From positions 1,302,001-1,366,000 of the forward strand of contig NZ_JACHGY010000001.1 in the NCBI RefSeq assembly GCF_014207595.1: DNA of 64,000 bases, given 5' to 3'. Within the stretch, counting starts at the first letter, position 1. The number at the start of each line of letters is the position of its first letter. The notes under the pieces are model-generated. The model saw only the letters and a program-made list of their open reading frames with translations, was not told the DNA's origin and did not search any database. The DNA comes from Algisphaera agarilytica. Its GTDB lineage: Bacteria > Planctomycetota > Phycisphaerae > Phycisphaerales > Phycisphaeraceae. Position numbers and translations under genes: made by a program. Below are positions 18,452 to 20,379 of the stretch, piece by piece.

Positions 18452-19228
18452 ATGGCCGAATCGAATCCTTCTGCTACGCCCCGCCTCTACGACGACCTCG
18501 CCTGGCTGTGGCCGCACCTCTCGCCGCCGGAGCACTACGTGACCGAAGCGGCTCGGCTCAACGAGCTGATCGCAAAGCGTTTGGGGCCGGGGCCGAAGCG
18601 TATCCTCGAACTCGGCGCGGGCGGCGGGCACACACTGGTGCACCTCGCTCAACAAGCCGGCGGTCAACACGACTGTGCCGCGGTGGATCTGTCCGAGCCG
18701 ATGCTCGATAACTGTCGGGCGCTGATCCCCGGGATCGAAGCGGTGGCGGGCGATATGCGGGACGTTCGGCTAGGCCGAACGTTTGATGTGGTGCTCATCC
18801 ACGACGCGATCGACTACCTGCTCACGCCGGGCGATGTGATGAAGACGCTGGCGACGGTGAATGAACACCTTGTGGCGGGCGGGTTGGCGGTGATCGCACC
18901 GACCTACACCCACGAGACGTTTGTCGATGGCGAGGTCGCAGACGACGGCACGACCACCGACTCGGCCGAGTTGACGTATTTCACGTATGTCCACGACCCC
19001 GACCCGGCGGACGACACGTTCGAGATGATCCTGTTGTATCTCATCCGCGATCAAACAACCCGGCAGGTCGAAACCGTCGAAGACCGCCACGCGATGGGGC
19101 TGTTCCAACACGGGGTCTGGCTGCAGATGATCGAAGACGCGGGGTTGCGGGCCGAGTACGTCGAGCAGGGCGAAGAAGACGCCGAGGACGAGGCGGCCTG
19201 GGCACTGTTTGTCGGCACCAAGCCGTAG
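18452..19228 (+). CDS. Class I SAM-dependent methyltransferase
   Basis: 258 aa. SAM motif I (RILELGAGGGHTLVHLA, near residue 50), an acidic residue after motif II (AAVDLSEPML), motif Post-I DMRDVRLG, and the motif IV area (FDVVLIHDAIDYLL). Small-molecule or rRNA substrates are equally possible; nothing identifies the target. It lacks the cysteine set of ArsM arsenite methyltransferases despite the arsenosugar genes 3 kb away. Convergent with the candidate small RNA at 19281-19421. Confidence 0.8.
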   Translation: MAESNPSATPRLYDDLAWLWPHLSPPEHYVTEAARLNELIAKRLGPGPKRILELGAGGGHTLVHLAQQAGGQHDCAAVDLSEPMLDNCRALIPGIEAVAGDMRDVRLGRTFDVVLIHDAIDYLLTPGDVMKTLATVNEHLVAGGLAVIAPTYTHETFVDGEVADDGTTTDSAELTYFTYVHDPDPADDTFEMILLYLIRDQTTRQVETVEDRHAMGLFQHGVWLQMIEDAGLRAEYVEQGEEDAEDEAAWALFVGTKP

Positions 19229-19280: not shown

Positions 19281-19324
19281 GAAAAACGCCGATCGGAAGA
19301 GCTTCCGTGCTCTTGCGATCGGCG
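19281..19324 (-). terminator. Intrinsic terminator of the small RNA
   Basis: 16-bp stem with one mismatch (arms 19309-19324 and 19287-19302), 6-base loop, followed on the minus strand by TTTTT (19286-19282). On the plus strand no T-run follows, so it is oriented for minus-strand transcription. Confidence 0.8.
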
Positions 19325-19421
19325 GACCCGGACATCCTTGTCTCCGGGGCGAAAATTCCACGATGCCTGATGCCCGTCCGTGAGCGGCGACGTGGAGAGA
19401 GCGAATCCTTTCGCTCACATG
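19281..19421 (-). ncRNA. Candidate CsrA/RsmA-sequestering small RNA (CsrB/RsmZ-like)
   Basis: Not a known family hit; deduced from structure. A promoter-like pair on the minus strand and a strong terminator bound a transcript of about 140 nt. It contains six GGA trinucleotides, four as ANGGA. Three lie in hairpin loops: GAGCGAA-AGGA-TTCGCTC (19416-19399); GACA-AGGA-TGTC (19342-19331), nested in a CCCG/CGGG stem, where ACAAGGATGT equals the core of the published CsrA SELEX consensus; and the terminator loop ACGGAA (19308-19303). Loop-presented GGA motifs plus a terminator are the hallmark of RNAs that titrate CsrA. No ORF of note is contained. Sponge RNAs of this kind are known mainly from gammaproteobacteria. 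The csrA gene is not in the window. Confidence 0.5.
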
Positions 19422-19427
19422 GCCCAT

Positions 19428-19455
19428 AACTTACGCTTCATTTGAGAAGAGTCAA
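19428..19455 (-). promoter_or_regulatory. Candidate promoter of the small RNA
   Basis: On the minus strand TTGACT (19455-19450), a 16-base spacer, then TAAGTT (19433-19428). The -35 matches consensus at five of six positions. Predicted start near 19421. Confidence 0.5.
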
Positions 19456-19611
19456 GGCTAATATCAATTTTTTATCGAATTTTATGTTCCGTTAATCTAA
19501 ATCGAGCTCAAAACTCGAATTTATCGGAAATTAATTCGATCCAATGCGGATGGATTTTGATATTGCCGATGATAACGCCTCGAATTGGTAATATCTATCG
19601 AGGAATATTCG
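19441..19611. promoter_or_regulatory. AT-rich intergenic island before the XRE-family gene
   Basis: The remainder of the gap between the methyltransferase and XRE genes is strikingly AT-rich for this genome. It holds the -35 of the small RNA, a TCGAG...CTCGA inverted repeat near 19502-19518, and GAATATTC just before the XRE start. No ORF is credible. It likely carries divergent promoters and operator sites. Confidence 0.4.
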
Positions 19612-20379
19612 ATGATCGAAGCAACCGCCCAACCCGACCAACTCCGCGTTTCCCGTGGCGAAGCCCTCCGCAAAGCCCGGAAGGCCGCGGCGCTATCTGC
19701 GGAACGGCTGGCGGAGTTCGTCAACGAACGAACCTCGGGCAGCGCGATCACCAAGCACGCGATCTACTCCTATGAACAGGGCAAGGTCCTGCTCTCTCGC
19801 GAGGTCGGCCACCGCATCGCACAAGCCCTGCAGCTCCACCCCGGGCAGCTCCTGCTCGGCGACCCGGACTACCGAAGCACGGCCGAGGGGAACATCCAAA
19901 CGATTGAATCCGATTCAGCGGTGGACCACGCCGCGGCCGTGGAACCCGGCGTTGCGGTCGAGCTGCGTGTTGAGCTGGTCGTGGGGGCTCAGCAAGCCCT
20001 GCCCGCCTCCCAGGTGCTCGCCCGCTTGCTCGGGGCGGCCAAGCTCGGCCGGGTCGATATCGCCGGCCACCTCGATGTCTTCCACCTCCTGCTCGAAGAC
20101 ACCGCCCCGCTGCTAGACTCCCCCGCCGCCCTCGCGGTCCGCGACTTCGGCGACCAAGCGGGTAACGAGCACCCCTTCGCCCTGCTTCAAGTAATCGAGC
20201 AGCTTCAGGACGTCGTCGCCAAAACGCTCGAACAACTCATCGACCCCCACGCCGACACCGCCCTCTCGCGTCACCGCCTGTGTATGGAACAGTCGCGGAC
20301 GCTCGGCCAACTCGCCCAGACCCTGGCTGGCGAAATCGACGCCTGCAACAAGCGCCTCCCCGGTGTGAGCCTGGACTAG
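19612..20379 (+). CDS. XRE-family helix-turn-helix regulator with an uncharacterised helical C-terminal domain
   Basis: 255 aa from ATG 19612, which has GAGGA about 7 bases upstream; an in-frame TTG at 19585 is less likely. Residues about 5-70 form a Cro/CI-type HTH (RGEALRKARKAAALSAERLA ... ITKHAIYSYEQGKVLLSREVGHRIAQALQL). The rest (about 100-255) is helical and I do not recognise it; it may sense a ligand or dimerise. The gene sits beside an AT-rich island containing the candidate sponge RNA on the opposite strand, so it could control that RNA, itself or both. That is inference from position only. Confidence 0.7.
   Translation: MIEATAQPDQLRVSRGEALRKARKAAALSAERLAEFVNERTSGSAITKHAIYSYEQGKVLLSREVGHRIAQALQLHPGQLLLGDPDYRSTAEGNIQTIESDSAVDHAAAVEPGVAVELRVELVVGAQQALPASQVLARLLGAAKLGRVDIAGHLDVFHLLLEDTAPLLDSPAALAVRDFGDQAGNEHPFALLQVIEQLQDVVAKTLEQLIDPHADTALSRHRLCMEQSRTLGQLAQTLAGEIDACNKRLPGVSLD

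Follow-up and report, generated by a model that had tools for sequence, protein, structure and literature searches.

A predicted CsrA-sequestering small RNA conserved beside an XRE-type regulator gene in fliW-bearing planctomycetes

We analysed a 64,000-nt stretch of the Algisphaera agarilytica genome (the window; contig NZ_JACHGY010000001.1, positions 1,302,001 to 1,366,000) and found that one of its intergenic regions very probably encodes a free-standing sRNA of ~147 nt, whose four CANGGANG/ANGGA hairpins would sequester CsrA and whose transcription is probably set by a helix-turn-helix (HTH) protein encoded next to it. This reading is drawn from the sequence and from its comparison among relatives. 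A CsrA sponge had been proposed here in a preliminary description, and the proposal is supported by the presence of csrA in the genome, by the conservation of the GGA loops, and by a loop context that fits the CsrA consensus far more often than background.

The features of the locus are listed in Table 1. The TTGACT/TAAGTT pair named in the preliminary description is present on the minus strand with a spacer of 16 nt, and the unit of about 140 bases said to follow it measures 147 nt (19427-19281). This unit is intergenic and does contain the six GGA motifs attributed to it. Its predicted fold (-66.4 kcal/mol, z -3.2) consists of four hairpins with a GGA in each loop; the motifs had rightly been placed in loops, although in three rather than the four that the RNA fold gives. 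Likewise, the T-run at the end of the unit is as claimed but the preceding stem is not of 16 bp: it has 9+6 bp (15 bp) with a single internal C:C mismatch, and is followed by GTTTTTC. The site likened to the CsrA SELEX consensus, ACAAGGATGT, lies at 19341-19332; hairpin 3 contains ACAAGGAUGU, which, following the preliminary description, we take to be the core of that consensus.

Table 1. Positions of the predicted sRNA unit, its elements and the flanking genes in the window
Feature	Position	Strand	Basis and remarks
Predicted sRNA gene	19281..19427	minus	~147 nt; fold z, loop GGAs, match to covariance model R1
-35-like TTGACT	19450..19455	minus	Sequence
-10-like TAAGTT, weak	19428..19433	minus	Sequence; 3/6 positions as in consensus
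Hairpin 1, loop AGGA, context AAAGGAUUC	19399..19416	minus	Predicted fold
Hairpin 2, loop ACGGAC, context CACGGACGG	19357..19396	minus	Predicted fold
Hairpin 3, loop CAAGGA, contains ACAAGGAUGU	19327..19348	minus	Predicted fold
Hairpin 4, intrinsic terminator stem, loop ACGGAA	19287..19324	minus	Predicted fold
Terminator T-run	19281..19286	minus	Sequence
XRE-type HTH regulator gene (HTH_31, PF13560)	19612..20379	plus	Pfam; divergent from sRNA
SAM-dependent methyltransferase gene	18452..19228	plus	Pfam; convergent; synteny marker

Across 1000 dinucleotide shuffles, loop GGAs averaged 0.19 and never numbered four, the count seen in the unit. No second place with four loop GGAs was found elsewhere in the 64-kb window, and there was none among 39,720 windows of 150 nt across 400 kb of the same genome, for which 20 spaced stretches were used purely as background. 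A further five windows with 4-5 loop GGAs, in 152 kb of the relatives' csrA and methyltransferase loci, lie in GGA-rich coding or leader DNA and were put down to chance.

A DNA sequence search returned no genuine homologue of the unit, the primary sequence of which is not conserved; one extra match (L004) falls inside a dsbD-like coding region and was discarded as a chance match. The place and structure of the unit, on the other hand, are conserved in five relatives, here G001, G002, G015, G042 and G005 (G000 being the window genome); the contigs of four of these are CALLPP010000071.1 (uncultured Algisphaera), JALZVY010000160.1, JANQPR010000171.1 and JAUIGU010000048.1. G001, G002, G015 and G042 share the arrangement methyltransferase - gap - XRE-type HTH, so that the methyltransferase gene flanks the sRNA in these and in G000, while G005 retains only the HTH gene of the two. 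In each relative, the strand of the gap that diverges from the HTH gene carries a promoter-like pair, then 140-159 nt, then a terminator-like hairpin. The -35 equivalents stand at the same distance and read TTGACA (G001, G002), TTGATT (G015, G042) and TTGCAC (G005); the -10 equivalents are TATATT, TAGAAT, TACAAC, TACAAC and TACAGT, with spacers of 16-17. Terminators are clear in five of the six units (the T-run of G005 is weak), and promoters are clear in G001 and G002 and weak in the window. The terminators of G015 and G042 (L028, L029) were observed to be branched, with two adjacent GGA hairpins within a GAGACC/GGGTCTC basal stem.

We found 4, 4, 3, 4, 4 and 3 loop GGAs in G000, G001, G002, G015, G042 and G005, respectively, against 0.14-0.35 in shuffles (P ≤ 0.004 for each), with 5-8 GGAs in total per sRNA. 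In every relative, a sliding scan blind to preset boundaries peaked at the predicted unit and on its strand; in G002, two windows ~70 nt further along tied with the unit. Several ANGGA hairpin loops in excess of chance are characteristic of sRNAs of the Csr/Rsm type.

The stems of these units vary, and loops such as UAAGGAC, CAAGGACG and AACGGACU retain GGA. Aligning G015 with G042 gave 39 pairs, of which five have changed on both sides and none is broken; for G001 and G002 the corresponding figures are 45, three and none. A covariance model built on G001 and G002 only (R1) recovered the window unit at full length (19282-19426, 25.4 bits, E = 2.7e-5) as well as that of G015 (E = 1.4e-4). The four-sequence model R3 matched the held-out unit of G042 with 49 bits (E = 1e-10), G042 being a near relative of G015. 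In the four-sequence alignment A5, pairing holds in 96.8% of cells, and two-sided changes occur in 23 of 45 pairs compared with 9.4 in shuffles; these pair counts are biased towards the structure, to which the alignment was fitted. The unit of G005 gave no covariance-model match and was identified by its position and GGA loops only. The covariance search and the conservation of GGA loops across relatives, both put forward as checks in the preliminary description, speak for the proposed sRNA, the loops being kept at the syntenic place. GGA loops that are kept while stems covary are again characteristic of the Csr/Rsm class.

The sRNA occurs in six genomes only. Covariance scans detected no such unit in the other 45 genomes of the family, all of which have csrA, and the intergenic regions beside the methyltransferase gene in family members that lack the HTH gene contain none. 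Extra weak matches arose genome-wide, mainly within coding DNA or at ordinary terminators; their GGA loops fail where the sequence can be read. Other members of the family may use FliW only, another sponge, or none.

What points most strongly to CsrA, rather than to another reader of GGA, is the context of the loop motifs, which is that of CANGGANG/ANGGA. The units had been picked by GGA in the loop alone, and flanking bases played no part in the choice; the bases around the loop GGAs nevertheless read C-A-N-GGA-N-G. An A at -2 (ANGGA) is found in 20 of the 22 loop GGAs, whereas its share among 660 loop GGAs of the background is 13.8% (P ~ 1e-15); the complete CANGGANG is found in 13 of the 22, against 2.1% of the background. 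The 22 sites are partly dependent, G001 being related to G002 and G015 to G042. The base before GGA is unconstrained (A 10, C 9, G 2, T 1). Apical CANGGANG hexaloops have been described as high-affinity CsrA sites (PMC4894983).

A search for csrA elsewhere in the window genome, as the preliminary description had advised, yielded two genes (G000:C1:2541229 and G000:C1:2408889; L001 and L002). Within the family csrA is present in 51 of 51 genomes, mostly in two copies of which one is beside fliW, and fliW in 47 of 51. Both CsrA1 and CsrA2 of the window genome retain L4, R6 and R44, which we take to be the RNA-binding surface of CsrA, and a CsrA with this surface intact is thus encoded in the same genome as the sRNA, as befits a Csr/Rsm-type system. 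The CsrA1 gene lies between fliW and a flagellin gene, and its product carries N55 as well as a C-terminal extension; CsrA2, with a four-residue insert, lacks N55, the residue of CsrA that contacts FliW (PMC13407953). Nearly every genome of the family shows the two-paralogue pattern, the N55 and insert states having been read in the window genome sequences only. Either paralogue could be the client of the sRNA, and CsrA2, being without N55, is an attractive candidate.

Across the family, fliW leaders share a conserved CCAGGAYGG motif, which suggests that CsrA recognises motifs of this type there; on sequence grounds it is likely to be a CsrA site on the fliW mRNA. Among 13 placeable leaders, 12 have CCAGGATGG, or in L050 and L054 the variant CCAGGACGG, ~25-50 nt before the start codon (for example L039 at ~860-957, L042, L043, L048, L056, L058, L063-L065 and L067). 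Several leaders have a further GGCAGGAAGCC hairpin, and the exact CCAGGATGG form is absent from the fliW leader of the window genome (L001).

Other explanations of the locus need to be weighed against a CsrA sponge. It is improbable that the unit is a structured sRNA whose GGA loops pair with C/U-rich mRNA or mimic a Shine-Dalgarno sequence without CsrA. Stable hairpin loops are indeed typical seed regions and GGA resembles part of the Shine-Dalgarno sequence; however, the conserved context is not AGGAGG but ANGGAN, with a G at the second position beyond GGA (CANGGANG), its N is free to vary, and the loop length and repeated sites suit CsrA, the gene for which is universal in the family. Still less probable, in our view, is a cis element (an attenuator, a leader or a riboswitch) or a short read-through ORF, ending at the terminator. 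An ATG at 19427 does open a frame of 128 codons, but this frame crosses the terminator into the methyltransferase gene in antisense, and the corresponding position in G002 lacks an ATG; moreover, the unit is convergent to the next gene, which leaves no downstream gene for a cis element to control. That the locus is a chance cluster of GGA-rich intergenic hairpins without function is the least credible alternative: GGA is a common trinucleotide and the primary sequence is not conserved, yet six genomes agree in where and on which strand the unit lies, in its hairpin plan and in its loop consensus, with compensatory changes.

If the unit is indeed a CsrA sponge, the sRNA would be transcribed to its intrinsic terminator and display its four hairpins, where CsrA would bind as one or two dimers spanning neighbouring hairpins, or two to four protomers in all; CsrA so bound would be kept off its mRNA targets in the manner of RsmY, RsmZ and CsrB. 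Its transcription would be set by the XRE-type HTH protein. Of 400 genomes from the order, six contain the HTH gene, and in all six the sRNA adjoins it. A regulator gene that is divergent from its neighbour and strictly linked to it often controls that neighbour, and on this basis we infer that the sRNA is probably under the control of the HTH protein and not of BarA-UvrY. No GacA/UvrY box (TGTAAG-N6-CTTACA) was found near 19430-19610 with up to three mismatches allowed. By eye, a CCGATAA heptamer can be seen upstream of the sRNA promoter in G000 (within 19428-19611 of the window), G001, G002 and G005; it is a possible HTH operator, but it is not significant alone and a chance occurrence is too probable for us to propose it as one. 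The methyltransferase gene is not thought to be functionally linked to the sRNA.

In its free-standing nature and its several ANGGA-loop hairpins the predicted sRNA resembles RsmY, RsmZ and RsmX of Pseudomonas, which are of similar length (~100-150 nt), and titration of CsrA (RsmA/RsmE) would be expected in the same way. It differs from them in having neither an Rfam match nor a GacA/UvrY box, and in lying beside an XRE-type HTH gene in a FliW-bearing planctomycete. CsrB and CsrC of E. coli likewise sequester CsrA by multiple GGA hairpin loops, CsrB having 22 GGAs (PMC7652899) compared with the 5-8 per RNA found here. The TwoAYGGAY motif, with two AYGGAY hairpin loops, is near to the present one; it has been reported from the human gut, Gammaproteobacteria and Clostridiales (PMC2864571). 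The window had no Rfam match at gathering threshold, and neither its own locus nor those of the relatives matched CsrB, CsrC, RsmX, RsmY, PrrB_RsmZ or TwoAYGGAY up to E = 5. In Campylobacter jejuni, which has FliW, the flaA mRNA leader carries two ANGGA hexaloops and also antagonises CsrA (PMC4894983); it is, however, an mRNA leader and itself a CsrA target, whereas the present unit is predicted to be a dedicated intergenic sRNA. The unit is best explained as a sponge RNA of the Csr/Rsm type that either has an independent origin or has diverged too far to be recognised.

Csr sponge RNAs are known mainly from Gammaproteobacteria and FliW from other bacteria; FliW and BarA-UvrY are strongly anti-correlated, with the Planctomycetes assigned to the FliW side (PMC4682653). 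Mimicry by sRNA and FliW have been called mutually exclusive CsrA antagonists in a review (PMC7366521), and whether any bacterium uses both together 'remains to be determined' (PMC7652899). A search of the open-access literature turned up no description of a Csr sponge RNA from planctomycetes. The co-occurrence of fliW and the predicted sponge RNA runs against the published mutual exclusion, and a predicted sponge conserved in fliW-bearing genomes makes co-action of FliW and sRNA directly testable. We tentatively suggest, as a possibility somewhat short of an even chance, that there are two antagonists, FliW for the flagellar CsrA1 and the HTH-controlled sponge sRNA for CsrA2 or for both. The predicted sRNA points to an ability of sponge RNAs to arise beyond the Gammaproteobacteria, with a different upstream regulator; a dual system of FliW and sponge, if true, would mean that Csr sponges have also originated independently of the gammaproteobacterial BarA-UvrY lineage.
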